This document shows, one piece after another, positions 2,967 to 24,218 of a DNA stretch of 30,560 bases. Position numbers and translations under genes: made by a program. The stretch is from a virus: positions 1-30,560 of the IMG/VR virus record IMGVR_UViG_3300049255_000527, one strand, 5' to 3'. Each line of letters starts with the position of its first letter. Position 1 is the stretch's first letter. The notes below the pieces were generated by a model, which worked only from the letters and a program-made list of their open reading frames with translations, ran no database searches and was not told where the DNA came from.

Positions 2967-3069
2967 GCTAATCAAAATCGAACACACCTGAATTTTGGTG
3001 GCTTTGGAGAACAGATCAAAAACATCGACTAAATTTCCAAATCGGACCTAAGCTTGGCCCTAGAACGCA

Positions 3070-3648
3070 ATGGGCATTGCAGAGAGTCAGAGCTCAACTT
3101 ATATGTTGACTGATCCGCTACTTTTGGGTGCAGTGGACGCTGGAGAGCTTCGGCTCTGGACCGGTTCTGTAGGGGTGCCAATTAGGTTGGTTCGGCGAAT
3201 GTTGATGACGCCATCTACCTATGATGAAATTATGAGGGATCCGTGGCCGAGAGAGCCAGAAGACCGGTCAGACCATGACGCGAGGTCGAGGCGCCGTAAC
3301 CTCCATGCGGTGATCAACAAGTTTGTCGAAGGTGGAAAACTCGTTCCCGACTTCGAAGCGAAAGTGCTGCAGCCCTCAGCGCCAGAGTTCAAAAACCTGA
3401 TAGAATTGCGATCGGGGCCTCCTCGGCCACAGTCCCGCCTACTTACCTACGTGTTTCAGCCTGGGGTCTGGATCGGAGTGAGTTTACGATTGCGGTCTGA
3501 GCTTGGCGCTCGTGATGATCCACGGTGGCTGCGTGAAGCGGCCCTGTGCAGGAGTGCGTGGGTTTCGATATTCGGAAACCGCCCAGCCCATTCAGTTACT
3601 TATCCGCTTGATTGGGCGCGAATTGCGAGACTGTCTGATGCGAAATGA
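3070..3648 (+). CDS. Hypothetical protein, first gene of AT-rich accessory cluster
   Basis: A 192-residue protein I do not recognise. It has no signal peptide or membrane segment. Residues 75-95 are charged (RRRNLHAVINKFVEGGKL). The C-terminal half (about 110-190) has a strand-rich pattern ending in a W-x-x-x-F...P segment, which faintly recalls HigB/Gp49-like toxin folds. With an XRE-type gene directly downstream, a toxin-first higBA-like pairing is possible but speculative. The TGA stop lies inside the start of the next gene (11-base overlap), so the two are translationally linked. Base composition is clearly lower in G+C than the flanking phage genes. It sits between the portal and scaffold genes, a place where accessory 'moron' genes insert. 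Confidence 0.6.
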   Translation: MGIAESQSSTYMLTDPLLLGAVDAGELRLWTGSVGVPIRLVRRMLMTPSTYDEIMRDPWPREPEDRSDHDARSRRRNLHAVINKFVEGGKLVPDFEAKVLQPSAPEFKNLIELRSGPPRPQSRLLTYVFQPGVWIGVSLRLRSELGARDDPRWLREAALCRSAWVSIFGNRPAHSVTYPLDWARIARLSDAK

Positions 3649-4075
3649 TTTGACCAAGCGGAAATCTCTGGAAGCGACCCATATCTTGGGGGAACTCGCG
3701 GCAAGCCGCCTATTTTCACTTATCCATGAACGCTTTGCTGAGCTCCAAGCGTCGGAGGGTTTAACTCAGGCTGATCTTGCTCATAAACTAGGAATTTCAG
3801 AGCAAGCCGTCTCTCGCTGGATGGTTGAGCCTAGGGATATGAGGGTCAGATCCGCAGGTAGGCTTTTGGCAGCCCTCAATGCCCACTTGTTGTTTTCGAT
3901 TGATAAATTCGAAGATATTCAAGCGGGCAACTTTAATAAATCGATCAATGTCTACTCAGATGAGCCGATAATATCAGTTCAATTAAGCACTGAGAAGATA
4001 TCCTCTGTGAAGGAGCTGTCTGTTGAGTCTCAGGAGCTGATTTCGGCTTCTCAGTCGACTTTCAGCTATGCGTGA
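3638..4075 (+). CDS. XRE-family helix-turn-helix protein
   Basis: A 145-residue protein starting at the ATG at 3638. An upstream in-frame start at 3503 would lie wholly within the previous gene and is less likely. Residues 41-62 (GLTQADLAHKLGIS...VSRWM) form a classic XRE/HigA-type helix-turn-helix, in which the second helix reads the DNA major groove. The first 30 residues are helical, and the C-terminal 60 residues are Ser/Glu-rich with no recognised domain. It overlaps both neighbours: 11 bases with the upstream gene and 8 with the downstream one. This points to a single transcript and probably autoregulation. It could be an antitoxin for the upstream protein or a stand-alone regulator. 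The HTH is solid; the partner is inference. Confidence 0.75.
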   Translation: MRNDLTKRKSLEATHILGELAASRLFSLIHERFAELQASEGLTQADLAHKLGISEQAVSRWMVEPRDMRVRSAGRLLAALNAHLLFSIDKFEDIQAGNFNKSINVYSDEPIISVQLSTEKISSVKELSVESQELISASQSTFSYA

Positions 4076-4592
4076 TCATTTTTGGCAATTCCCACACGGA
4101 TTCTCCATATTCTGCGATGACATACGCCAGGAAATCGGCGGTAAAATCACCCTGGTGGGCGTCTATAATGTTGCCATACTCGCGATGGACGGCTTTCCAT
4201 TAGTTATTCCAAAGCTCTGCTTTTCTACTCGCTATCGAGAGCCATTATTAATGGAGCGCGCGAGCGAATTGATATTCAAATTGATAGTCAACGATGGCCC
4301 TGAAGATAGGGTTGTTTTCGAGCATATAGTTTCTGTGTCTACTATAAAGCCATATGATATAATGGCTGAAAGCGAAGAAACGGACCCTACTTCATTCTGG
4401 GAGTTTATAATTAATGGCATGGTATCTCCATTAATTATAAAAGATACGTCAAAAATCCGGATGCGAGCTTACCGCGATGGCGAAGAACAAAGATTAGGTG
4501 CGCTCCTTATTCGTGCGCCAACTGATGATGAGCGCGCTTATATGGCTGGAAGTCCCCCTCGGAAAGGCCGCGTCAAGCGCCCCCGCAATTAG
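4068..4592 (+). CDS. DUF6941-like protein of unknown function
   Basis: A 174-residue protein whose N-terminus carries CDDIRQEIGGKITLVGVY (residues 16-33). As I recall it, this is the hallmark of a widespread bacterial family of unknown function, DUF6941. The family assignment is from memory and has not been checked by a search. The rest is strand-rich, and the C-terminus is basic (PPRKGRVKRPRN). The ATG overlaps the TGA of the HTH gene, so translation is probably coupled. Composition is AT-rich (26 of 60 bases G/C at 4201-4260, against 41 of 60 in the capsid gene at 7501-7560). No enzymatic motif is visible. It closes the three-gene cluster. Confidence 0.6.
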   Translation: MRDHFWQFPHGFSIFCDDIRQEIGGKITLVGVYNVAILAMDGFPLVIPKLCFSTRYREPLLMERASELIFKLIVNDGPEDRVVFEHIVSVSTIKPYDIMAESEETDPTSFWEFIINGMVSPLIIKDTSKIRMRAYRDGEEQRLGALLIRAPTDDERAYMAGSPPRKGRVKRPRN

Positions 4593-4942: not shown

Positions 4943-5395
4943 ATGTCCCTTGCCGAAGCCAGCACCGTCGAACGCTTCGCCCACGAGTTGGCGAGCCCGG
5001 GGTTTGGCGATCTGCGCGATGACGTGGCGGCGCGGTCGCAGCGCATAAGCGCGCTCGTCGACGAGGTGATCGCCAAGCTTGGACCTGAGCCCGGCCAGAG
5101 TGTTCAAGACCAGTCCCGCCATCTGGCGTTGGTGGAAGGTCTGACGGCGCTGATGTCGTCGGGCCTCGATGTCTTGCGCGGCAATCTCGACGCCATGGAC
5201 CCGGACGGCCCGCTGTTCGAGGCCGCCGAAGCCGCGCACAACGCGATGGTGGAGGACTATTACCGACTGGTCGCTTTGAGCGCCGCGCTGGATCCGGGGT
5301 CTCGGGCGGGGCCCGTGGCTGAGCCTCTGGCCGATGACGAAGACGTCGGCGCCTGGATGGAGCGCCAGATCGCCGCTCTGCATGCCGACGCTTGA
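4943..5395 (+). CDS. Probable antitoxin partner of RelE/ParE-type toxin
   Basis: A 150-residue, strongly helical, acidic protein without a recognised DNA-binding motif. It is called an antitoxin only because of its position: the downstream toxin-like gene starts inside its last codons (14-base overlap), the usual toxin-antitoxin layout. The sequence has heptad-like stretches (RSQRISALVDEVIAKLG near 31-47, then a region around 60-115) and an acidic C-terminus, DDEDVGAWMERQIAAL, which would suit binding to a basic toxin. At 150 residues it is longer than most RelB/ParD antitoxins. It may instead be a phage protein that happens to abut the toxin gene. Confidence 0.55.
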   Translation: MSLAEASTVERFAHELASPGFGDLRDDVAARSQRISALVDEVIAKLGPEPGQSVQDQSRHLALVEGLTALMSSGLDVLRGNLDAMDPDGPLFEAAEAAHNAMVEDYYRLVALSAALDPGSRAGPVAEPLADDEDVGAWMERQIAALHADA

Positions 5396-5654
5396 GGCGA
5401 GCCGGCGGTTTCTGAGGGCCTACCAGAAGGCGACGACACGCGACCGCGACCGCGCCGAACGGATCAACAGGGCTCTGGAACTGTTCAGGACCGACCCCGA
5501 CCATCCCAGTCTGAACTTCGAGCGGCTCGCCGGGTCCGACCTGTTTTCCATCCGTGTCAATCGCGGCGACCGGATCATTCTGCGCCGGCGGGACGGCGAC
5601 CGGTTCGAACTGGTCGATGTCGGATCGCACGACATTTATCGACGGTATCCTTAA
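5382..5654 (+). CDS. RelE/ParE-superfamily toxin
   Basis: A 90-residue protein starting at the ATG at 5382; the frame is open further upstream, but the conserved fold begins here. Members of this superfamily cleave mRNA on the ribosome (RelE) or poison gyrase (ParE). Features include an N-terminal helix pair with many basic residues (TTRDRDRAERINRALELF), LNFERLAGSDLFSIRVNRGDR and the strand-rich C-terminus RIILRR...VDVGSHDIYRRYP, which is typical of the family. The gene overlaps the candidate antitoxin. It lies between the portal and scaffold genes, so it could serve prophage maintenance. Which target it attacks cannot be read from the sequence. Confidence 0.75.
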   Translation: MPTLEASRRFLRAYQKATTRDRDRAERINRALELFRTDPDHPSLNFERLAGSDLFSIRVNRGDRIILRRRDGDRFELVDVGSHDIYRRYP

Positions 5655-5797: not shown

Positions 5798-5939
5798 TCC
5801 CGCTCATCCTCGCGAACGCGAGGACCCAGTTCTGTGCAAGACTGACGTGGCCGAAAGGCCTGAAGCGCCGGGGCCGCGCGATCTAAAATCCGTAGACCTG
5901 GACAACACTGGGTCCTCGCGTTCGCGAGGATGAGCGGGG
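5798..5939. repeat. 32-bp inverted repeat pair (GCTCATCCTCGCGAACGCGA)
   Basis: Two arms, 5798-5830 and 5907-5939, are perfect reverse complements over about 32 bases (core CTCATCCTCGCGAACGCGAG), separated by 76 bases. A third copy with one change lies at 24187-24218. Each arm also contains a short internal palindrome (CTCGCGAACGCGAG). It could fold into a long stem after the toxin-antitoxin pair. It looks like a dispersed chromosomal intergenic repeat. Confidence 0.8.
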
Positions 5940-10469: not shown

Positions 10470-11132
10470 ATGGCCACGATCCGCGACGCCGTGACGCGGG
10501 CGCTGCTTCTGCTGAAAGCCACGGCGCCCGGAGACGACCCCACCGCCGACGAGCTGGCGGAGGGCCTTCGCGGCGCGCAGGCGTTGATCCTCGAGATCCA
10601 CGAGGCCCGCGGCCCGCTGCTGACGCGCGACATCACCGGGAACACCACGCCGGGCGAGAACCAACGCCTGCGGGTGCAGGCCGGATCGACGGTCAGCGTC
10701 ACGCTCCCCAACAGCGTGGCGATTTCCGACGCCTATGATCCCGACGACTACGGGTTTGATCCCGGCATCCCCTGTGACGGCGCCGCCAATCCCCCGGTGG
10801 GATCGACGGGCGCGGCGGACGGGATCGCCTGGCGCCAGCCCACCGACGGGGCGCGGATCGAGATCGTCGGGACCCAGCAGGGCCTCTATTTCTACCGCGC
10901 CGACACCAATGCCTGGATGCCGGCCCTGGGTCTCGCCCTCGACACCGAACAGCCGCTCAATCAGCGCCTGCAACCCGCGTTCGAGGCGCTGCTGGCCGAG
11001 CGGTTGGCGGATGTGTTCGCCAATGCGGATCAACTGACCCCGGCGCAGAGGAGCCGCCTCTCCAAGGCGCACGAACTGCTGTTCAGCCGCCCGGGCGCGG
11101 GCCGGCGGCCGGTGCGCGCCCAATACCTTTAA
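10470..11132 (+). CDS. gp4-like head-tail connector / tail accessory factor (copy 1)
   Basis: A 220-residue protein resembling P22 gp4, which adds to the portal after DNA packaging, closes the channel and docks the tail. The N-terminal ATIRDAVTRALLLLKATAPGDDPTADELAEGLRGAQ pattern (helix, loop, helix 'xxAL..LN.m') is typical of the family. The middle is strand-rich, and the C-terminal helix (AFEALLAERLADVFAN...) ends in a basic tail. A second protein of similar size and plan lies at 18241-18900. The two differ greatly in sequence, so they are not recent duplicates. Gene start abuts the previous stop. Confidence 0.65.
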   Translation: MATIRDAVTRALLLLKATAPGDDPTADELAEGLRGAQALILEIHEARGPLLTRDITGNTTPGENQRLRVQAGSTVSVTLPNSVAISDAYDPDDYGFDPGIPCDGAANPPVGSTGAADGIAWRQPTDGARIEIVGTQQGLYFYRADTNAWMPALGLALDTEQPLNQRLQPAFEALLAERLADVFANADQLTPAQRSRLSKAHELLFSRPGAGRRPVRAQYL

Positions 11133-13186: not shown

Positions 13187-14440
13187 CTAGGCCGGGCTAC
13201 CTCTCGAATCTTGTGCCCGATCGGTCCATCGCATAGGCCCCAGAGGTCTCGCCGAATACCTAACCCGCTTTGAGGGAGCTGAAATGGTTTCGTTTTGGCA
13301 ATAGGTCAGGCACGCGTAGAAAACTATAGAACCTAAGAAACTGCCAATCGAGCCAGCGAACACTAATTCAGAGGTAAGCATAGCTAACAGTATAGCTGGG
13401 AACGATGGTATCTGCTTATACCTGCTGAAGGCAAATATACAGGAAGCCAGAATAAGCAACGCAGTGCAGACGCCGAAATTGATAGCGAAGGTTAATATTT
13501 CCGACTCGGTAACTCCAAGACTGCTCAATAGAGAATAGGTAGCATATTTGATGTTCGAAAAATCTATATAATGAACTCCATAACCAAGAAATGGGGCATG
13601 CAACGCCGTTTCGAGTCCAGAGGTCATCAATTTCGCCCGCAAGACATTATCTACGTCGTATGAAGGGGCGGAGAATGTGAAATATAGAAATATAAGAGCA
13701 GTCGTGAAGCTCCAGAAAAGGAGTGGTATACGACGTAGGCCTGGAAAAAGTATTATTGTGGCGGTGACGGATTCAAGCCCAATATATCTGCGGGCGCCAC
13801 TGAGATATATTGAATAGCAGATGAGTAAGAATAATACTGAAGATGCGGAAAATAGCCTTCCGGTCTTAACACGAAACGCCAAATATGAAGCGGCGATATA
13901 GGAGACATATCCTACCGCTAGGCTATTTCCCGAAAGGCCAAGAAAATGTAATCCATAGTTCAGACTTCCCGCCTCGCCGGCGACCTGCGCCAAGTGCCCA
14001 ATATTAAAATAGGTAGTTATATTAGCCACCATGTCTCCGGTGGCGAATAACACGCAAATCTGGCAAATTCGTAAAAGAAGATCAGACTGACGTCTAAAAA
14101 AGAATAGAATTAGCGGAACAACGCAATCAATGCCGAATAGACCAAGGTCACGAAACGACATGCCGTCTTTAAAATACCGGATGATAGTCGAAAAAATAAA
14201 CCCAGCTAAAGCAAGTCCTAGCATATAAACCGATACAAATCGTCTACCGTCTTGCTGGGCGGTTCTGTTGAATGCGCTTATATCAGATGCGGTCATCCCC
14301 ATCAGGCCGATTGCAATAACGGCGGCTGACAACGCTGACGCAGTTGCGGAAGGGATCTGGAATATGCCGTTCAGATAAAGTGACGATACGGTCCCCCAGG
14401 CCGTCATCCAGATAAAAACGCTAGCTGGCGAAATGTTCAT
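13187..14440 (-). CDS. O-antigen polymerase/ligase-like polytopic membrane protein (Wzy/WaaL type)
   Basis: A 417-residue protein with about ten to twelve membrane segments, so an inner-membrane protein. Such proteins either polymerise lipid-linked repeat units (Wzy) or attach finished O-antigen to lipid A core (WaaL). The periplasmic motif HAPFLGYG (281-288) and the SGARRYIGLE segment (214-223) match this superfamily. With a flippase and a sugar mutase beside it, Wzy is the better guess, but sequence cannot separate the two. Composition is AT-rich (25 of 60 bases G/C at 13681-13740), unlike the phage genes. The last 25 residues are coded by GC-rich DNA and look appended at the insertion junction. 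It converges on the tailspike gene, with six bases between the stops. Confidence 0.75.
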   Translation of the reverse strand: MNISPASVFIWMTAWGTVSSLYLNGIFQIPSATASALSAAVIAIGLMGMTASDISAFNRTAQQDGRRFVSVYMLGLALAGFIFSTIIRYFKDGMSFRDLGLFGIDCVVPLILFFFRRQSDLLLRICQICVLFATGDMVANITTYFNIGHLAQVAGEAGSLNYGLHFLGLSGNSLAVGYVSYIAASYLAFRVKTGRLFSASSVLFLLICYSIYLSGARRYIGLESVTATIILFPGLRRIPLLFWSFTTALIFLYFTFSAPSYDVDNVLRAKLMTSGLETALHAPFLGYGVHYIDFSNIKYATYSLLSSLGVTESEILTFAINFGVCTALLILASCIFAFSRYKQIPSFPAILLAMLTSELVFAGSIGSFLGSIVFYACLTYCQNETISAPSKRVRYSARPLGPMRWTDRAQDSRGSPA

Positions 14441-14635
14441 GCGGGCTAATTACGGATGAAACGGCTTGTTGGCTAGATATTGGCGTACGCCGCCTGACGG
14501 GTTCCGCGCCGACGGCTGCGCATTTGGTTTTTGACGTGACAAAGGCGCCCGGCGAATGACGGATTAAAGCGCCGATGTGCGGGCGGGCGCTTAGGCCCGT
14601 CCCGCCGGCCAGTGCCGACCACCAAAGCCGAATTT

Positions 14636-15742
14636 CTACACCGTCGCCGCTTGGCCTAGCAAAGACTTCATAGCACTTAGCGCTGACCCCACAGCCTGAT
14701 CCATATTGAAGTACTTGTACTCCGCAAGACGCCCGACAAAGGTCGTTTTTTGGGCTCTTTGCGCGAGAGCCCTATACCGTGCATAGATCTCAGCATTCTC
14801 CGGGCGTGGTATCGGGTAATAGGGATCCCCCTCAGCCTGGGGATATTCGTAGACTAGGGATGTGCCTGAGTGGGTCTGTCCCGTCAGGTGTTTGAATTCG
14901 GTGATACGGGTAAAGGGCACCTCGCCGGGGTAGTTAACCGTGCCCACGCTCTGAAACTGCGACCGCTCGGCAAGGTGGACGTGTGCGAAGAAAATGCTGC
15001 GGTATGGCAGGCGCCCCTCTGAATACCGAAAAAACGCGTCGATCGGACCTGTATAAATCGTCCAGTTCCTATCGACCCGGGCCTCGATCTCGAAATAATC
15101 GGTGGCCAGCTCGATGGTGATGTTCTTGTGATCCAGGAGGTTCCGAAACAGGCCAGTGTAGCCGTCCTTCGGCATGGCCTGATAAGTGTCGGTGAAATAC
15201 CTGTCGTCGTCATTGCTACGGGTTGGAATGCGTGACGCGACGCCTGGTGAGAGTTGGCTGAGCTCAAGCCCCCATTGCTTGCGCGTATAGTTTCGGAAAA
15301 ACATATCGGCCAACCGCACCCCGACACTATTGAGGACGACATCCTCACTGGTGCGAATCTTGTCGCAGGGAATGCGCAGGCTTTCCAGAAGCGCCTCGGC
15401 GCCGGCCTCATCTAGGCTCAGGTCAAAGACGCGCTCAAGCGTGACACGGTTGATGGGAAAGGGCACCTCTAGGCCGCCGAGTTGCGCCAAGACGCGGTGC
15501 TCGTAGGGTCGCCAGGTCGTGAAGCGAGATAGGTAGTCGAAAATCCGCTCGGAATTGGTGTGGAAAATGTGGGGACCGTAGGGGTGAACCAGCACGCCGG
15601 CCGAATCGAAGCGATCGTGAGCATTGCCACCGATATGGTCGCGCCGGTCAATGATCAGGACGGTGCGACCGGCCTCGGCTAACTGCCGCGCGCAGACCGC
15701 TCCCGCGAACCCGCAGCCCGCGATCAGAACATCAAATCTCAT
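14636..15742 (-). CDS. glf: UDP-galactopyranose mutase
   Basis: A 368-residue flavoenzyme that converts UDP-galactopyranose to UDP-galactofuranose, the donor for Galf residues in O-antigens and capsules; it acts in the cytosol. The N-terminus has the FAD-binding GCGFAG (9-14), DRRDHIGGN (32-40) and the family signature YGPHIFHT (55-62). TRKQWG further on is also conserved. Its length agrees with E. coli Glf (367). The ATG at 15742 begins the conserved fold; a longer in-frame start at 15865 would lie inside the flippase gene. It overlaps the flippase stop by 11 bases, so the two are co-translated. The presence of glf predicts a Galf-containing surface glycan. Confidence 0.93.
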   Translation of the reverse strand: MRFDVLIAGCGFAGAVCARQLAEAGRTVLIIDRRDHIGGNAHDRFDSAGVLVHPYGPHIFHTNSERIFDYLSRFTTWRPYEHRVLAQLGGLEVPFPINRVTLERVFDLSLDEAGAEALLESLRIPCDKIRTSEDVVLNSVGVRLADMFFRNYTRKQWGLELSQLSPGVASRIPTRSNDDDRYFTDTYQAMPKDGYTGLFRNLLDHKNITIELATDYFEIEARVDRNWTIYTGPIDAFFRYSEGRLPYRSIFFAHVHLAERSQFQSVGTVNYPGEVPFTRITEFKHLTGQTHSGTSLVYEYPQAEGDPYYPIPRPENAEIYARYRALAQRAQKTTFVGRLAEYKYFNMDQAVGSALSAMKSLLGQAATV

Positions 15743-17072
15743 CGGAGACACTTTCGGCGCCCCCGGGCTGGCGGTGCCAGGGTGGCGGAAAAACTGCGAC
15801 CGCCATGGCGGCGGTGACGACGGTTTCGGTGATCCCAAGGGAGATGGCGGCACCCGTCGCCCCATAGCGATAGGCCAGGGGAGGCAGCAGACAGAGATTC
15901 ACCAAGCCGCCTCCGGTAACAATCCAACTGAATACACGCGTCATGCGGCGTGGCAAGAGCACCAAAAGCCCTAGCACGCTATTGGCCGCCAGAATAAGCG
16001 GAAGCGCGGCCATGATCCGAAGCGGCGTCTCGGCCGCCGCATAATGGCCGCCGCCCACCAAGGCCACGATCGGACGCGCGAAGAGAAACAGCATCACGCC
16101 AACTACCAGCCCGACCCCGCACAGAGGCGCCGCGATTAGCCCAGCGAGCCGCGCGCCGGACTTCAGGGATTGCGTCGTGGTCTGGACAAGTCGCGGATAG
16201 GCGGCTGTTGTGACCGGTGGAATGAAGGCGGCGCTCGCGTTCCTGATCTTATCGGCAGTAGAAAAAAAGGCGAGTTGGGCGGGGCCGCAGATCGTCCCGA
16301 CGAGCACGGTGTTGGTCACCGAATAGAGGCTGACGGCGGCGGTGGAGAGAAAGGTATGGCCGCCTTCGCGCAGGGCGTCCCGAATGCCAGAGAGCGTCGG
16401 CCATGCCAGGGGCTCCTTTAGTGATTTAGTTAGGATGCCCAAGCAGAGACCTCCAGCGAGGATCGGCGTCAGCGCTATTATCAGCGCCGCTCGAGGAAGG
16501 TCGTCCGGGCGATGGACCCATGAGAAGGTGGCCACCAGGCTCGCGCTGCGGGCGGCGAGCAGGCAGACCGAGGGAACCGCCATGCGCTCCAGGCCCCGGA
16601 ACAACCATTCAGGAAAAATGATCGACCCCATCGCCAAGGGCAGGAAAAAGACCATGGTCGGGCGGCTATCGCGCAGGGCGGGTGCCAGGGCCGTCCCGAC
16701 CGCAAGCAGCAGGACGCCGCCGATGAGCAGCAGGGCCTTCGCCCCTAGGACCGCGCTGACATACGGGCCGATCGGCGTTCCTTCGCTCCTGGCCTCGGCG
16801 ATGCGCCGCGCCGCCGAGAGGTTGAAGCCGAACTCCACGAAGAGACTGAGATACAGGACGGTCGCCTGGGCGAGCATCAGCCGGCCGAAGGTGACCACAC
16901 CCAGGGCGCGCAATAGGTAGGGGATGGTGATCATGGGCGCGATGAGGTTCGCTGCCTGAACGGCCGAAAGTGCCGTCATGTTCTTGAGAAATAGCTTATC
17001 CAGTCCGAAGAGCTTGGGCAGCTTAGGGGCCTTCGACCAGGGGCTTGAAAACCTCGAGAGCGTCTCTTTCAA
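15732..17072 (-). CDS. Polysaccharide flippase (Wzx type, MOP superfamily)
   Basis: A 446-residue protein with about twelve to fourteen membrane segments that should flip undecaprenyl-linked repeat units across the inner membrane. The region after residue 30 (KNMTALSAVQAANLIAPMITIPYLLRALG) is the usual opening of the Wzx family, and ADKIRNASAAFIPPVTTAAYPRL is typical for its middle. The frame opens with a TTG at 17072, overlapping the upstream glycosyltransferase by 50 bases. An ATG at 16979 would cut off part of the first membrane segment, so TTG or another upstream start is preferred, but the start is uncertain. The N-terminal 25 residues are Lys/Pro-rich and cytoplasmic. It forms an operon with glf downstream and the glycosyltransferase upstream. 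Confidence 0.85.
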   Translation of the reverse strand: MKETLSRFSSPWSKAPKLPKLFGLDKLFLKNMTALSAVQAANLIAPMITIPYLLRALGVVTFGRLMLAQATVLYLSLFVEFGFNLSAARRIAEARSEGTPIGPYVSAVLGAKALLLIGGVLLLAVGTALAPALRDSRPTMVFFLPLAMGSIIFPEWLFRGLERMAVPSVCLLAARSASLVATFSWVHRPDDLPRAALIIALTPILAGGLCLGILTKSLKEPLAWPTLSGIRDALREGGHTFLSTAAVSLYSVTNTVLVGTICGPAQLAFFSTADKIRNASAAFIPPVTTAAYPRLVQTTTQSLKSGARLAGLIAAPLCGVGLVVGVMLFLFARPIVALVGGGHYAAAETPLRIMAALPLILAANSVLGLLVLLPRRMTRVFSWIVTGGGLVNLCLLPPLAYRYGATGAAISLGITETVVTAAMAVAVFPPPWHRQPGGAESVSDEI

Positions 17073-18000
17073 ACAACCACTTCTGTGCCCTTATCATCGC
17101 CCTATAGTCCGAGAAATTTTTCGAGTGGTCCTCGAAGTTAGAAAATATCTCGCCGATCTTATCAGCCGCACGCACGGCGAAATCCGACTCGTTGTCATCG
17201 ATTTTGTAGGCTCTATCTACGGGGACATCGATGTCATTGGCCGCGCTGCCCCGTTGGTTGGTGATGACGCAACACCCCAGTGCCGCAGCTTCTCGCGGGA
17301 TGCGGTCCTGACCGGGATGGTTGCCAAAATCGACATAGACCTTGGCCCGGGCGAGCAGGTCCATAACCTCGCCGCGCGACATGCCGACGATGGGAACCGC
17401 CGTCCCGGGCGCCAATCGCGAGATCACCTTGCGGGTCGTCTCGACGCCCTTGGCGGGGTTGTAGGCAACGATGTCCTCCTTTTGGTCGACCGACGTCGAT
17501 GAGCCGCGCACGACGAATTCGTCATTAATGAAGTCGCCGAGGAACCGCGACTCGCAACCAGCGGCAGACTGGAGGAAGTGTCGCGCATATTCCGACTGGA
17601 CGAGGTGATGATGAATTTTGCGACGTCCCTGCGGCGTCCGGACATCTACAAAGGAAAAGGGGGAGAGCAGATTTCGAATAAAAAAGCGTGGCTTTCGCGA
17701 GCCAAAATAGTTATCGACGCTTAACCACCAAAACACGATCTGATGCCCCGGAAATTCATCAATAAAATATGAATATACCTCAGGCAAGACAATAATAGAA
17801 TCTGCTGAAACTTGGTGTTTTCTAATAGTAACAGTTTTATAGTTCTCATACGGCTTCGGTTTTTCAAAATATTTCCTAAACGGCCAGTATAAAAACTTCG
17901 TTTTAATTCCGGCGCTTATCAAGACATCTGAAAGCTGGTGCAAGAGTTCGCACCCTCCGGTCGCGCCGTCGCCACCGCTCACGATCACAACTTCACGCAT
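17023..18000 (-). CDS. Glycosyltransferase, GT-B-like
   Basis: A 325-residue protein that probably adds a sugar to the lipid-linked repeat unit. The ATG at 18000 has GGGGGTGA just upstream and begins the first Rossmann strand (REVVIVSGGDGATGGCELLHQL). A GTG at 18027 is less likely. The C-terminal domain carries VYVDFGNHPGQDRIPREAAALGCCVITN (about 240-267), the position where GT-B enzymes bind the nucleotide (the E-x7-E-like region), and ends in a helical tail. Codons in the first third are AT-rich, while the last third is closer to host composition, so the gene may be a mosaic. It is first in the flippase-glf operon. Donor and acceptor are unknown. Confidence 0.7.
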   Translation of the reverse strand: MREVVIVSGGDGATGGCELLHQLSDVLISAGIKTKFLYWPFRKYFEKPKPYENYKTVTIRKHQVSADSIIVLPEVYSYFIDEFPGHQIVFWWLSVDNYFGSRKPRFFIRNLLSPFSFVDVRTPQGRRKIHHHLVQSEYARHFLQSAAGCESRFLGDFINDEFVVRGSSTSVDQKEDIVAYNPAKGVETTRKVISRLAPGTAVPIVGMSRGEVMDLLARAKVYVDFGNHPGQDRIPREAAALGCCVITNQRGSAANDIDVPVDRAYKIDDNESDFAVRAADKIGEIFSNFEDHSKNFSDYRAMIRAQKWLFERDALEVFKPLVEGP

Positions 18001-18240
18001 TTCACCCCCGTCGATGTCTTCGGTCACGTCACGCCCCTTGGCGGAAAACCGTGCGCTGCGAGGCCGATCTCACGGGGAATATGCCGCAAGCGAAGATACA
18101 ATATCACGCGCCTTGAGTTCAAACTCTCTCGTCGTTCATTTGAATCAGCGCTGGCTTACCGTGGTTATCCCTGAAACGCTCAAGGGGCTTTAGTTTCCGT
18201 AGCTCCCTGCTTCGCCTAACCCCCACCCCCGGAGGCTCCC

Positions 18241-18900
18241 ATGTCCCTGACGGTACGCCAGGTGATTGAGCGCGCCGGTCGTCTGCATGGGCTGTGGGCG
18301 TCGGGGGCGGAGCCTTCGGCCTCGGAGGCGGCGGACGCCCTGGTGGCGATCAACGCGATGAAACGGGCGATGTTCGGGACCCTGATCGGCCCCCGGCTGG
18401 GGCCGCAGAGCCTGACCGGCACCACGGGCCAGGCGGAGACCGGCGGCGAGTATCAGATCCCCGGCGGCGCGGCCTTCACCCTGACGGCGCCCCTGAATCC
18501 GAAATCCGGCGCGCGGTTCGGCGTGGTGGATGCGGGCCTGTCCTGGGCGACCACTAACCTGACGATCAATCCGAACGGCCGGCTGATGAACGGCGCGGCG
18601 TCCAACTATGTGATCTCGACGACAGGGCAGAACACCCGCTTCTGGTTCCGGGGCGATACGGGCAATTGGGTGATCGAGGCGGACTTCGCCTCTCTGGACA
18701 GCGCCATCGAGTTCCCCGATCCCCTGATCGCCTATCTCCCCTACCTGCTGGCCGTGGTCATCGCCGCGGAGTTCGGGGCCGACATCCGGCCCGAGATCGC
18801 GGCGGCGGCGCAGGAGGGTCGGGAAGCCTTCGCGCGGACCTATTACCGGCGCGGACGCGGGCAGGTGGAGGGCGTGATCGGGCTGACGGTGGCGGGGTGA
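18241..18900 (+). CDS. gp4-like head-tail connector (copy 2)
   Basis: A 219-residue protein with GGAGG at 18231-18235 before its ATG. It has the same overall plan as the 10470 gene: N-terminal helices (LTVRQVIERAGRLHGLWASGAEPSASEAADALVAINAM), a strand-rich middle, and C-terminal helices (IAYLPYLLAVVIAAEFG...) ending in a basic segment. P22 gp4 itself closes the portal channel and holds the tail. Of the two copies, this one has the closer N-terminal match to gp4-type proteins as I know them. Its last 172 bases recur at 20997-21168 after an inserted methyltransferase/glycosyltransferase cassette, so the cassette was added without breaking this gene. Confidence 0.7.
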   Translation: MSLTVRQVIERAGRLHGLWASGAEPSASEAADALVAINAMKRAMFGTLIGPRLGPQSLTGTTGQAETGGEYQIPGGAAFTLTAPLNPKSGARFGVVDAGLSWATTNLTINPNGRLMNGAASNYVISTTGQNTRFWFRGDTGNWVIEADFASLDSAIEFPDPLIAYLPYLLAVVIAAEFGADIRPEIAAAAQEGREAFARTYYRRGRGQVEGVIGLTVAG

Positions 18901-18903
18901 GGG
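18729..18903 (+). repeat. 175-bp direct repeat, copy A (3' end of connector gene)
   Basis: Identical to 20997-21171 except for one base (T at 18746, A at 21014), with an offset of 2268. It covers the last 57 codons of the gp4-like gene plus the stop and three bases. With copy B it brackets the methyltransferase/glycosyltransferase cassette. Confidence 0.97.
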
Positions 18904-19049
18904 TAACGGGATGTATCTTGGTAATCCTGCTCGTCTTGGAACAAATCAGGGCCTGAGGTCTCAAACCAATAGATCTATTCACAATCGGCGCATGCGGCCA
19001 TAACGCGCCACTCTGAGTCGCCGGGCCGTGAGCCCGTTCCTGAGCGACC

Positions 19050-19706
19050 TCAGCTGCCGGCCTTACGGGCCCAAATGAGGGTTTCAACGCCATAGAATTC
19101 ATGACTGCCGATCAAGGCTCGCCTAAGGGCGCGCGAGAGGGGTTCCACCAGCAGTCCTAAAGTCCAGAGCAAGACGGGTCGGTAACGCCTAGCAAAATAG
19201 GTAATCTCGAAGCCGCCAGTTCGGAGCGCGTGCAATATGGCGTCAGGGTCGGGCGGCGGCGGCTTATGCGTTTCGTCGTCGAAATAGCAGAGGCCGCCAC
19301 GACGCGGAAAATCAACGGAGGCTTGGCAAGGAAAGGCAATGTAGAGAGCCCCGCCCGGCTTCACCACACCCATCATCGCCTCCAATGTGGCGACTCGATT
19401 ATCGACATGTTCGATATTGTGCGCAGATATAACAGCGTCAAACGCAGGTCTCAATCCAGAAATCGCGCTAGAGAAATATTCGGGTGTCGTGATAACATAT
19501 TCATCAGCCATATTAGGCTGAGTTTGATTACAGTCTCCGATATCAATACCTGTATAGTGACATAAAGGAATTGCGTCTTTAAATCTGTAAGAAGAATTGT
19601 TTCCGCAGCCAACATCCAGGATACGAGAGTTCGGGGAAAGACATCTCAGGAATGCGAATTTCCCGCGCGACTTGAGCAGAAACGGAATGAATTGTCTTAA
19701 ACGCAT
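19050..19706 (-). CDS. Class I SAM-dependent methyltransferase
   Basis: A 218-residue enzyme with motif I ILDVGCGN (29-36), the acidic strand-2 residue in GIDIG (53-57), NIEHV (97-101) and the post-motif VKPGG (115-119), all typical of Methyltransf_11-like enzymes that bind S-adenosylmethionine. The substrate cannot be read from sequence. Next to glycosyltransferases in a surface-glycan setting, O-methylation of a sugar or chain-end capping is plausible. Composition is lower in G+C than the phage genes. The gene runs against its neighbours inside the repeat-bounded cassette. The region around 180-200 (PVLLWTLGLLVEPLSRAL) is hydrophobic and may bind the membrane. Confidence 0.8.
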   Translation of the reverse strand: MRLRQFIPFLLKSRGKFAFLRCLSPNSRILDVGCGNNSSYRFKDAIPLCHYTGIDIGDCNQTQPNMADEYVITTPEYFSSAISGLRPAFDAVISAHNIEHVDNRVATLEAMMGVVKPGGALYIAFPCQASVDFPRRGGLCYFDDETHKPPPPDPDAILHALRTGGFEITYFARRYRPVLLWTLGLLVEPLSRALRRALIGSHEFYGVETLIWARKAGS

Positions 19707-20205
19707 ACGCCCCCGCCCAGTCTAGTCAATAATCAAAGTTCAATCCCAACACATAAACAAGTCTGGTAGGTTAATCCAGGTGCCCGATGGCGCGTGTCGT
19801 CAAACGCCAGATAACTCAACCTAGCTTGCTTTGTGAGCTTGAGCCTACTTGAAGACGTGATTTAGCTTTGCGTAGGCGGTAAGGGTGGCCAGGGGGTTTT
19901 GCTGCTAGGCAGGCAGCCGATAGGCGCAGTGGCCTGATCCAATGATCCAGAGCAGGCCCGGTAAATTCCGCAAGGTCCGCGCCTTCTATAAGGTGTGTGA
20001 TTGCGAGGGAAGCGGTTGCCGACGCGGGTGTTAAGGTGGAGTTTATGACCGCCATGCTTAGGAATGAACTTCCGCGCCAGGGGCGCCGCCTGCGGTCCGC
20101 CGCAGGATCTCCGTCGGTCATTTAAGGCCCCTGCGGCGACTGGCGGTGCGGTACAATGATAATTTTAGGCGGGCGACAGGCCGGCAGGTTTTGAGGGAGC
20201 GGGGC
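19707..20205. other. 499-base gap inside cassette, no gene recognised
   Basis: Lies between the divergent methyltransferase and glycosyltransferase genes, so it should hold their promoters. A minus-strand frame at 19816-20121 (101 codons) has no ribosome binding site or familiar domain and is not accepted. A 26-codon frame at 20045-20125 is too short to judge. GAGGGAG at about 20193 serves the downstream gene. Composition is mixed, which could reflect a decayed gene. Confidence 0.4.
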
Positions 20206-20994
20206 GTGTCCAAGGGCGAAGAGGCGGCGGTCACGCTTAGCTGCGTCGTGCCCGCCTATGAGAACGCGCCGATCTTGGCGCGCTGCCTACTCTCCCTCGT
20301 CACCCAGACGGGGATCGACACAGAGGTAATCGTCGCCGACGATTCGAGAACCGCCGCCGTGCGGACCTTGGTGGAGGGCCTGGCGGCCGTCTATCCACAG
20401 CTCCGGTATGTCACCGGCGCGCGAACGGGAAATCCGGTGGAAAATTGGAACCTTGGCCTGGATGAGGCCCGGGGCCGTTACCGAGTCGTCGTCCATCATG
20501 ACGAGTTCTACATCGACGCCGATGGTCTGCGCCGGGCCGTGGACCGCCTGGACAGCGACAAGGCCGATGTTCTCGTCGCGAATCTGTTTGCCGTCATAGG
20601 CGGCGGCAGAAGCGCCTTTTTTACTGTGCGCAAACTGGCACGGATGATGCGTTGGGCGCCCTGGACCCTCTATGCGCTGAACTGGGTGGGTCCTACCGGT
20701 GTGGTCATTTACAGAGGACGCCAGGATCTCAGATTTGACCCTTCTTTGAAATGGATGGTGGACGTAGATTTCTATGTACGTCTGTTAACTGGCAGGTTCA
20801 TCGAAGATGACGATATTCGCATCGTCTCGATCTGTCACGAAGGTCAGATCTCCAACCAAGTGGAAAAGTATAAAACACTTTCCCAGGAAATGGACTGGCT
20901 AAGAAATACTTACCCCACTCGCCTTAAATATTGGAAATATGAAATACTTCTCGCGGTCAACAGACTCCGCACGGCGCTTCGAGTGGCTCGATAG
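20206..20994 (+). CDS. Family 2 (GT-A) glycosyltransferase
   Basis: A 262-residue enzyme that transfers a sugar from a nucleotide donor. GTG at 20206 with GAGGGAG six bases upstream is the best start; a GTG at 20146 lacks one. The GT-A fold opens with LSCVVPAYENAPILARCLLSL (11-31). EVIVADDS (40-47) contacts the nucleotide. The metal-binding DxD position reads VHHDE (96-100), and WMVDVDFY (183-190) fits the catalytic-base region. No membrane segment is seen. It ends just before repeat copy B. The final codons are AT-rich, while the start is GC-rich. It belongs to the same cassette as the methyltransferase. Confidence 0.85.
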   Translation: MSKGEEAAVTLSCVVPAYENAPILARCLLSLVTQTGIDTEVIVADDSRTAAVRTLVEGLAAVYPQLRYVTGARTGNPVENWNLGLDEARGRYRVVVHHDEFYIDADGLRRAVDRLDSDKADVLVANLFAVIGGGRSAFFTVRKLARMMRWAPWTLYALNWVGPTGVVIYRGRQDLRFDPSLKWMVDVDFYVRLLTGRFIEDDDIRIVSICHEGQISNQVEKYKTLSQEMDWLRNTYPTRLKYWKYEILLAVNRLRTALRVAR

Positions 20995-20996
20995 GG

Positions 20997-21171
20997 CGCC
21001 TATCTCCCCTACCAGCTGGCCGTGGTCATCGCCGCGGAGTTCGGGGCCGACATCCGGCCCGAGATCGCGGCGGCGGCGCAGGAGGGTCGGGAAGCCTTCG
21101 CGCGGACCTATTACCGGCGCGGACGCGGGCAGGTGGAGGGCGTGATCGGGCTGACGGTGGCGGGGTGAGGG
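20997..21171 (+). pseudogene. 175-bp direct repeat, copy B: orphan 3' fragment of the connector gene
   Basis: A headless copy of the last 57 codons and stop of the gp4-like gene at 18241-18900 (174 of 175 bases identical). It starts three bases after the glycosyltransferase stop and has no start of its own, so it is not expected to be expressed as a protein. The base change T to A turns one Leu codon (CTG) into Gln (CAG). High identity means either a recent duplication or repeated gene conversion between copies. Confidence 0.95.
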
Positions 21172-21242: not shown

Positions 21243-22001
21243 CTAAGGCTTCACCCCGATCGTCATCTGAACATCGAAGGGGCCGGTGTCGCCGGGGGAG
21301 ACGGTGACGGGGATGCCGACCGCTTCGAGGGCGTATTTGATCGCCGTGCCCCGGGCGTTGCCGGGCTTGACGGTGAGATGCAGGCCCCGGGGCAGGGGGT
21401 TGGGCGCGCCGATGCTCTTGGCCTGGCCGCGATAGCCGGCCTGGTCGATCAGCTTGATGAACTGGTCGCCATAGGCGGCGGCCTCGGGGTCCGAGAGGGT
21501 GGAGACATCGATGTTCGGCGGCCCTGGAATGGCCTTGAGCGCGGCCAGGAGGCGGGTCTTCTGGGCGTCGGTCAGGCTGCGCGGGCCGGCGGCCGGGACG
21601 TGGCTCGGGACGGTGGCGGCGGCCTTGAGATCCTTTTGGGCGGCGGCGAGCTGGTTCTTCAGCGTCTGGTTCTCGGTCCGAAGGGCGGTGACCTGGGCCA
21701 GGCTGGCGGCGGAGGCCCCAGAGGACGCCCCAGAGGACGCCCCAGAGGACGCGCCAGAGGGTGCGCCGGCGGGCGCCGCGGGCGGCGTGTGAGCCCCCGG
21801 CGTCGGGGCTGGCGCGGGCGGGGCGTCCATCAGGACGATATCGTGAGATGGCGGCGGCCGGTGGCTGAGCGCCTCGGTGACGGCCAGCTGCTCACGCAGG
21901 GCGGTGAAGCGCACGGTTCCCACCGCGCCCAGGACGACGGCGACCGCCCCCGCGGCGAGCAGGATCTGCGAGGCGAGAAGCCACAGACGCACGACGGACA
22001 T
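21243..22001 (-). CDS. Membrane-anchored coiled-coil protein of unknown function
   Basis: A 252-residue protein starting at the ATG at 22001; an open frame reaches 22133, but its extra part is Arg/Pro-rich and atypical. Residues 5-30 form one membrane segment, with the bulk probably periplasmic. After a Pro-rich linker comes a SGAS repeat (about 80-98), coded by a 12-base tandem repeat. A coiled coil (LAQVTALRTENQTLKNQLAAAQKDLK, about 101-126) follows. The C-terminal domain (142-252) has an alpha/beta pattern ending in DTGPFDVQMTIGVKP. I do not recognise a family. It runs opposite to the phage genes, as host genes or morons do. A spanin, envelope or exclusion protein would fit the layout; none is shown. 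Confidence 0.65.
   Translation of the reverse strand: MSVVRLWLLASQILLAAGAVAVVLGAVGTVRFTALREQLAVTEALSHRPPPSHDIVLMDAPPAPAPTPGAHTPPAAPAGAPSGASSGASSGASSGASAASLAQVTALRTENQTLKNQLAAAQKDLKAAATVPSHVPAAGPRSLTDAQKTRLLAALKAIPGPPNIDVSTLSDPEAAAYGDQFIKLIDQAGYRGQAKSIGAPNPLPRGLHLTVKPGNARGTAIKYALEAVGIPVTVSPGDTGPFDVQMTIGVKP
21717..21764. repeat. 12-bp tandem repeat inside coiled-coil gene
   Basis: CCCAGAGGACGC occurs three times perfectly (21717-21752), followed by one degenerate unit (GCCAGAGGGTGC). It codes for the Ser-Gly-Ala-Ser linker on the minus strand. The unit is a multiple of three, so copy-number change alters linker length without a frameshift. Confidence 0.9.
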
Positions 22002-22147
22002 ATCCACAGTGATCACCCCCGCCGTTTGAACGCCTCGGCCGGTCACGCCGCCACGGGCCGCACTTATCCTTAAGGCAGGCGCCGGGGCAAGGTGACGCGG
22101 AGTCGCGGGCCGGAGATGGCGCCGGAGAGCCACAGAAGGGGGGCGCC

Positions 22148-23677
22148 ATGCCGAACGTGGGTCAAGGCTCCGCGCCTCCCGATCAGATCGCCCAATTCCG
22201 CAGCGACGGGATCACAGCGGCGACGGGCCTTCGGATTCCGTTTTTCACCGACGCCTTCAGCCGGTCCTTCGGCTTCCCTTCCGTCCTGCCGGTCAACATG
22301 ATCATCGAGGAGACGCCGCTTCGGGAGGAGCGGCCCTATGCGGCCTATGTGGGCCTGCGCGAGGTGCACTATTCCCGGCCGGGCCTGGTGAGTTATCGGA
22401 CCTACGCCTCGGGGCCCGTGCGCGGGGTGTTTCGGGCGCCGTTCTCTTACGGCGGCGGGCTCTTCGTGGTGGCGGGGACGACGGCCTATAACGTCACGAC
22501 GGGCGCGGCCTGCGGAACCATACCGGGGACCGACCGGGTGCGCTTCGCGGCCAGCGAGCAGCAGATGGTGATGGTGGCGGACGGCGCCGCCTATCTGTTC
22601 GATGGGAGCAACTTCAACCCCATCGACAATGGCGTCCTGCCGCCGGTCTGTGACGTGGCCTGGCTGGGCGGCCGCTTCGCCTATATGGCCATCGGGACCG
22701 ACACCTGGTGGTATTCAGAGATCGACGACGCGGGGAACGAGGGGGGCCTCGACTTCGCCACGGCGGAAGGCTTCCCCGACCCCAATGTGGCGGTCAGCGT
22801 GCTCAATGACGAGCTGGTGATCTTCGGGACCCAGAGCGTCGAGTTCTGGCAGGTGACCTCGGATGCCACGGCCCCCTTCGCCCCGGTGGTGGGGCGCGGC
22901 TATCAGCGGGGCTGTATCGCCCGCGATACCGTCGCCTTCGCCGATAACGGGCTCTTCTGGGTGGGCGATGATCTGGTGGTCTATCGGGTGGGGAGCGTTC
23001 CCACGCGGGTCAGTTCGTCCAGCATCGAGGACAAGATCCGGCAATGCGCCGACCCCTCGACCCTGACGGCCATCGTCGTGCAGTTCGAGGGCCACGAGTT
23101 CTATGTGCTGAATGTGCCGGGTGTCGGCAGTTACGCCTATGACCTCAGCCGCATCGGGACCCAGGCCCAGGCCTATGGCGACAGCTATCAGCGCGGCGAA
23201 TGGCAGGAATGGCAGAGCGCGGGCTTCGACACCTTTCGGGCCCAAGTCGCCGTGATGCTGAACGGCGTCGCCTATGTGGGCGATATGACCACGGGCGATC
23301 TGTGGACGATGCAGGTGGGCGCCTATACCGACGCGGGCGGCCCCTTAAAGCGCGAGGGCAGCCTCTTCATCAAGGTGGAGGAGGGAACGCCCCGGTGCCT
23401 CAACCTCGTCCTGCACGGGGTGGTGGGGCAAGGCAACGCGGTCGATCCGGGCGCCGATCCCTTGGTGGAGATGCGCTTTTCCGACGACCAGGGCCAGACC
23501 TTCACGCCGTGGCAAGCGTCCGTGCTGGGGCCGCTGGGGCAATACCGGACGCGGGCTTACTGGCAGAGGCTGGGGTTGTTACGCGCGCCGGGGCGGTTGG
23601 TGCAGGTGCGGTGTTCGGACCCGGTGAACGTGGTGTTCAGCCACGTGGAACTGAACGCGGCGCGGCCGGGGTATTGA
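22148..23677 (+). CDS. Tail hub / packaged-DNA stabilisation protein (P22 gp10-like)
   Basis: A 509-residue beta-rich protein. P22 gp10 forms the hexameric hub below gp4, to which the tailspikes and needle attach. Features fitting the family are a long run of repeating strand pairs, DTWWYSEIDDAGNEGGLDFATAEGFPDPNVAVSVLNDELVIFGTQSVEFWQ-type motifs near residues 187-240 (split over several strands), and the absence of a signal peptide or membrane segment. AAGGGGGG just before the ATG is the ribosome binding site. Length is close to P22 gp10 (472). The gene starts a plus-strand operon with four-base overlaps or gaps of a few bases through most of 22148-26934. Confidence 0.75.
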   Translation: MPNVGQGSAPPDQIAQFRSDGITAATGLRIPFFTDAFSRSFGFPSVLPVNMIIEETPLREERPYAAYVGLREVHYSRPGLVSYRTYASGPVRGVFRAPFSYGGGLFVVAGTTAYNVTTGAACGTIPGTDRVRFAASEQQMVMVADGAAYLFDGSNFNPIDNGVLPPVCDVAWLGGRFAYMAIGTDTWWYSEIDDAGNEGGLDFATAEGFPDPNVAVSVLNDELVIFGTQSVEFWQVTSDATAPFAPVVGRGYQRGCIARDTVAFADNGLFWVGDDLVVYRVGSVPTRVSSSSIEDKIRQCADPSTLTAIVVQFEGHEFYVLNVPGVGSYAYDLSRIGTQAQAYGDSYQRGEWQEWQSAGFDTFRAQVAVMLNGVAYVGDMTTGDLWTMQVGAYTDAGGPLKREGSLFIKVEEGTPRCLNLVLHGVVGQGNAVDPGADPLVEMRFSDDQGQTFTPWQASVLGPLGQYRTRAYWQRLGLLRAPGRLVQVRCSDPVNVVFSHVELNAARPGY

Positions 23678-24111: not shown

Positions 24112-24218
24112 CCCGCTCATCCTGGACAAGGCGAAGCGTCAGCGAAGCCGCGATCCAGGACCCAGAGGACTGGGCAATCTGGAAAACACTGGGTCCTCGC
24201 GTTCGCGAGGATGAACGG
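24112..24218. repeat. Intergenic palindromic repeats before tail fibre gene
   Basis: CCCGCTCATCCTGGAC (24112) and a nested stem in the following 50 bases, then ACTGGGTCCTCGCGTTCGCG (from 24188), matching the right arm at 5907-5939 except near its end. It probably folds into stems; a dispersed intergenic repeat. Confidence 0.7.

Follow-up and report, generated by a model that had tools for sequence, protein, structure and literature searches.

Described systems

It is well established that P22-like phages carry morons near their tail genes. In the epsilon34 survey, the compared phages had no morons elsewhere in the morphogenetic cluster, and direct repeats are unmentioned (PMC2629481). Long, variable target duplications of ~100 bp have been described for the recombinase-free insertion of restriction-modification genes, as outlined in Nobusato et al. 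2000 (cited in PMC1643837 and PMC3874152). In Salmonella Typhimurium DT8/DT30 the wzy locus is excised reversibly and forms circles; ~1 in 500 cells lose it, and it can be reacquired in co-culture (PMC12074656). The original statement on the locus described here, that no unit of this kind had been described, was therefore wrong, as insertion with long target duplication and the Salmonella wzy locus are both close precedents.

The phage and its late gene cluster

The stretch of DNA we analyzed (the window) is a 30,560-bp IMG/VR virus contig with P22-type genes for the portal, major head protein, head closure (Hc3), DNA ejection protein, and large terminase. The relatives, which we collected with the head-closure gene as the downstream anchor, comprise metagenomic phages and Caulobacteraceae MAG contigs; the window phage is a soil phage infecting Caulobacter-type bacteria, and its closest relative, L002, has a DNA identity of ~89%. 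The features of the locus are as follows:

18241-18900, plus strand: second adaptor-like tail gene, complete, with a predicted gp4-like fold and a TSP4/T4-gp10-like beta domain (alignment, predicted fold, Foldseek)
18729-18903, plus strand: repeat copy 1 (the original), with the ancestral base T at 18746, which is T in all relatives compared
18904-20996, no strand assigned: inserted cargo, 2093 bp, lower in GC than the backbone and in no relative
19050-19706, minus strand: class I SAM-dependent methyltransferase, intact (PF13489, 1.7e-9; PF08241, 1.5e-8)
20146-20994, plus strand: family-2 glycosyltransferase (PF00535, 9.6e-19)
20997-21171, plus strand: repeat copy 2, an orphan adaptor-gene 3' end without a start, with the derived base A at 21014
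21243-22133, minus strand: the gene whose L002 counterpart comes next after the adaptor gene at the empty site (L002 10690-11439, 74% identity)
22148-23677, plus strand: head-closure (gp10/Hc3-like) gene (phrog_578, 7e-75)

The product of the gene at 18241-18900 has 93% protein identity to its L002 counterpart. We predicted its fold with AlphaFold2 on an 18-sequence alignment (pLDDT 86) and compared the model by Foldseek, which matched it to the Pan3 and Pam1 adaptors (TM 0.62/0.73 and 0.61/0.72, respectively). In the model, adaptor helices appear to be arranged around an inserted beta domain like that of tailspike TSP4 of phage CBA120, and the repeat codes for the C-terminal helices. At the sequence level, the adaptor homolog is the product of 10470-11132 (Pam1 adaptor 7eep, 1.9e-13), for which the fold model was poor (pLDDT 54). 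The repeat had been placed at the 3' end of a gp4-like connector gene; the gene end and the adaptor fold both held, but the gene encodes the second, spike-anchor-like adaptor of two, and the name connector seems acceptable by predicted fold. The presence of two adaptor-like proteins (18241-18900 and 10470-11132) in one podovirus is an observation in its own right, as is the altered gene order within the family seen in L056, L057, and L058, where the adaptor-like gene is downstream, not upstream, of the head-closure gene.

Several other features of the cluster were noted. Between the spike and adaptor genes, the window has a minus-strand block (13187-18027) of a polymerase-like gene, a UDP-galactopyranose mutase gene, a Wzx-like flippase gene, and one more gene; this interval in L002 has only another, 358-aa membrane protein, and in other relatives a plus-strand wzy-like gene. 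A helix-turn-helix and DUF6941-like gene pair is located between the portal and scaffold genes of the window (3503-4592), and a similar pair in L004 (12247-13103) is immediately upstream of the head-closure gene, making this pair cargo whose location differs among relatives. A palindromic intergenic repeat occurs at three places in the window as an exact 20-mer (5804-5823, 5914-5933, and 24195-24214), and L004 has palindromic intergenic repeats as 168-bp copies with 96% identity (1258-1425 and 14751-14918) behind its head-protein and head-closure genes; no copy of the motif turned up in a search of four host MAGs and two phage records. Inside the head gene cluster of the window, a small gene pair (4943-5654), the second gene of which is ParE-like, is a possible toxin-antitoxin pair.

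The direct repeat and its cargo

The claimed match between 18729-18903 and 20997-21171 was confirmed, at 174 of 175 positions in direct orientation and 2268 bp apart. The one mismatch is T at 18746 and A at 21014, the longest identical run is 157 bp, and the similarity is far beyond chance; this is the sole near-identical direct repeat of such size in the window. A search for a third copy found none, the only further match being the single allelic copy of L002. Copy 1 runs on without a break from the 5' part of the gene at 18241-18900, includes the last 172 bases of that gene, and spans its stop codon and 3 further bases (TGA GGG), and copy 2 begins 2 bases past the glycosyltransferase stop codon (TAG, 20992-20994). 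The cargo is placed behind the intact gene, not within it. If translated, the derived A of copy 2 would turn a conserved hydrophobic residue (L) into Q. We found no terminal inverted repeat or hairpin in the repeat and no folded site, no terminal inverted repeats of the insert, and no match in a search for tRNA or Rfam elements.

With a GC content of ~50–64% versus ~70% for the phage backbone, the cargo is foreign in composition. Both the methyltransferase and the glycosyltransferase said to lie between the repeats were found by domain and are full length relative to their homologs. Homologs of the glycosyltransferase, which are Caulobacteraceae proteins with 40–49% identity, end near the same residue, and its true start is probably near 20206. 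The best relatives of the cargo in 388 Caulobacteraceae genomes had 40–49% identity for the glycosyltransferase and 44–46% for the methyltransferase (chromosomal proteins in the latter case), with no phage structural genes nearby, and searches of other viral contigs with the two proteins identified no carriers. The domain search of the cassette found no recombinase or transposase domain, in keeping with the original remark that it contains neither transposase nor integrase, and PF00589 and PF00239 were absent from the window record and from nine relatives, records that may be fragments. A consensus scan of the cassette for promoters and terminators gave scores at the level of shuffled sequence, and the link to a GtrB-like phrog family was a marginal match.

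Glycan cargo is common in the phage family. Further surface-polysaccharide genes in the window include a sulfotransferase and wzy/glf/wzx; many relatives have wzy-like genes in the interval from spike to adaptor, and at different positions L002 encodes an FkbM methyltransferase and a further membrane protein. Based on the gene class and these surface-polysaccharide genes of the family, the cassette probably changes a glycan on the host surface, in the manner of serotype conversion. A likely benefit of the cargo, judging from the gene class and the tailspike neighbors, is that the changed host surface sugar keeps out superinfecting phages of the same type.

Distribution among relatives

The empty site sought in related genomes was found in L002, which goes from the same adaptor gene straight to the next gene, with one copy of the repeat sequence and no insert; window 18223-18902 aligned with L002 9982-10665, and window 21237 onward with L002 10681 onward, with nothing inserted. 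All 30 related contigs with the adaptor gene (23 viral and 7 MAG) had a single copy and no methyltransferase/glycosyltransferase cassette, L014 being masked at the adaptor-gene 3' end. Because of the L002 empty site and these 30 cassette-free single-copy relatives, we consider the insertion specific to the window record. Other cargo between similar repeats had also been envisaged; none of the 30 relatives had different cargo between copies of this repeat or a further occupied site. The insert is thus extra DNA between conserved phage genes, with deviating composition and missing from relatives, which are the marks of a moron. It also has those of insertion with long target duplication: the 175-bp repeats are single in L002, the repeat is the end of the conserved target gene, and there is no transposase or terminal inverted repeat.

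Origin of the insert

On balance we favor, as the probable account, that a moron of two surface-glycan genes was inserted once, non-homologously, and duplicated 175 bp of its target. The two copies differ from each other at 1/175 positions (0.6%) versus 14/166 (8–9%) to L002 over the same stretch, and because of this both copies most likely came from one genome; a copy from another phage would be expected to show a divergence similar to that between related phages. This argues against the original proposal that the cassette entered together with a gene-end copy of its own: with the copies 99.4% identical and the nearest relative 8–9% off, duplication within the genome is indicated. The ancestral base in copy 1 and the derived base in copy 2 form the pattern expected of a non-coding leftover, which favors the duplication account. 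An older or foreign origin of either copy could be masked by gene conversion between them, and since only one occupied genome is known, parsimony is the basis for the order of events.

By this account, the insertion point would be three bases past the stop codon of the intact adaptor gene. A linear DNA fragment may have been captured, for example where a break had left ends staggered by ~175 bp that were then filled in, or where two copies of the phage genome had broken at staggered positions. The target would have been duplicated at insertion, with copy 1 remaining functional and copy 2 drifting, and the repeat would be a by-product of the insertion. End joining is a conceivable joining route given the presence of Ku in the host genus (7/16 genomes). 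Microhomology at the junctions was weak, as a 29-column match scored at the 3–7% level of random pairs, which is not significant.

The arrangement of cargo between two repeats is also the exact product of a Campbell-type crossover, and it could therefore reflect a mobile cassette in the form of a 2268-bp circle with one copy of the gene end, which enters and leaves by a single such RecA crossover. The Salmonella wzy locus (2558 bp, with 113-bp repeats) makes circles and is lost and regained (PMC12074656). However, the copies in the window are too alike for one to have been imported, the 30 relatives offered no circle, second site, or alternative cargo, and the cargo was missing from other viral contigs; we regard this route as distinctly unlikely. 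A somewhat better chance, although still a small one, goes to an assembly artefact in which two strains or a repeat node were misjoined by the assembler. In favor of this, the record is metagenomic, its 157-bp identical stretch exceeds usual k-mers, and a repeat node with two ways in and two ways out would fit an empty phage plus a separate molecule (a free circle) equally well. Nevertheless, the junctions are outside the shared sequence, so that some reads must have run out of the gene end into the cargo and others out of the cargo into the interior of the gene; moreover there is no third copy, and the base difference shows that the copies were kept apart.

The restored 3' end and the direct repeats also look like att sites, as would be left by an integrase-type element with the adaptor-gene 3' end as its attachment site, similar to gene-end-restoring islands. 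This is very improbable: searches of the cassette, the window record, and the nine relatives found neither a tyrosine nor a serine recombinase, the insert is behind an intact gene, 175 bp far exceeds usual cores, and no other phage of the family had an insertion between such repeats at this site.

Possible reversibility of the insert

As originally predicted, a single crossover between the repeats would remove exactly 2268 bp and keep the adaptor reading frame, and a crossover to the left of the mismatch would alter one residue of the adaptor-like protein (L to Q). Minimal lengths for RecA pathways are quoted as 23–90 bp (PMC12074656). Since the 157 identical bases, 2.3 kb apart, are well above the RecA length, occasional precise deletion is expected, and by this reasoning the cassette should undergo homologous deletion at some rate. 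Its persistence would therefore suggest either youth or selection for the cargo. That the cassette comes and goes, as had been suggested, is possible but found no support among the 30 relatives, which had no alternative cargo or second occupied site. The insert offers a way to test directly if cargo in phages becomes reversible through long target duplications.

A possible second case

A contig of Caulobacteraceae MAG G017 (L078; G017:C426) has the 3' end of a g25355-like phage gene repeated at 1-107 and 2972-3078 (107 bp, one mismatch), and these repeats enclose 2.86 kb with SRAP, DUF3597, and DUF937-like (host-like) genes. In L078 the ejection gene is truncated after ~25 codons, and the second repeat copy is cut off by the contig end; a search for a contig continuing downstream of the repeat found none. 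L078 is no more than suggestive of a second gene-end duplication, at a different gene in the same phage family. It was the only additional candidate from a search of the family and of distant prophages for gene ends duplicated in this way. We consider it doubtful, with little chance of being correct, that the lineage repeatedly gains 2–3 kb of foreign DNA with 100–180 bp duplications of structural-gene ends in a recombinase-free, reversible exchange of morons. If true, repeated gene-end duplication would leave the gene whole and the cargo cleanly deletable later, and confirmation of the L078 case would raise interest.

Comparison with known systems

The window insert is a variant of known things. 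The class outlined in Nobusato et al. 2000 has in common with it foreign genes, no transposase, a target duplication on the order of 100 bp, and an empty site in a relative, and differs in that it involves restriction-modification genes in Helicobacter chromosomes, whereas the window has glycan genes in a phage late operon and a duplication of 175 bp. In common with the Salmonella wzy locus are a glycan block of ~2.5 kb, long direct repeats, and no known recombinase. That locus contains O-antigen genes between perfect repeats, and its precise loss leaves one repeat (PMC12074656); it is chromosomal, with intergenic 113-bp repeats and with excision and circles established by experiment, whereas the window insert is phage-borne, has a gene-end repeat, and is known from sequence.

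In P22-like phages, morons such as epsilon34 gtrABC and the "ant moron" occur like the window insert among P22-type morphogenetic genes, with cargo located by tail genes, and modify surface polysaccharide, as the window cargo probably does (PMC2629481). Unlike the phages of the epsilon34 survey, the P22-like Caulobacteraceae phage family of the window has cargo, including surface-glycan genes, at several places inside the morphogenetic cluster. The product of 18241-18900 appears to have its fold in common with the adaptor proteins of cyanophages Pam1 and Pan3 (7eep, 9vyg), and differs from them in an extra tailspike-anchor-like beta domain, in a genome with a second adaptor gene. The window provides a readable snapshot of moron entry into a phage late operon with an essential gene left unbroken. 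To our knowledge, a moron in a phage late operon accompanied by a 175-bp duplication of a structural-gene end is a combination that has not been described previously.
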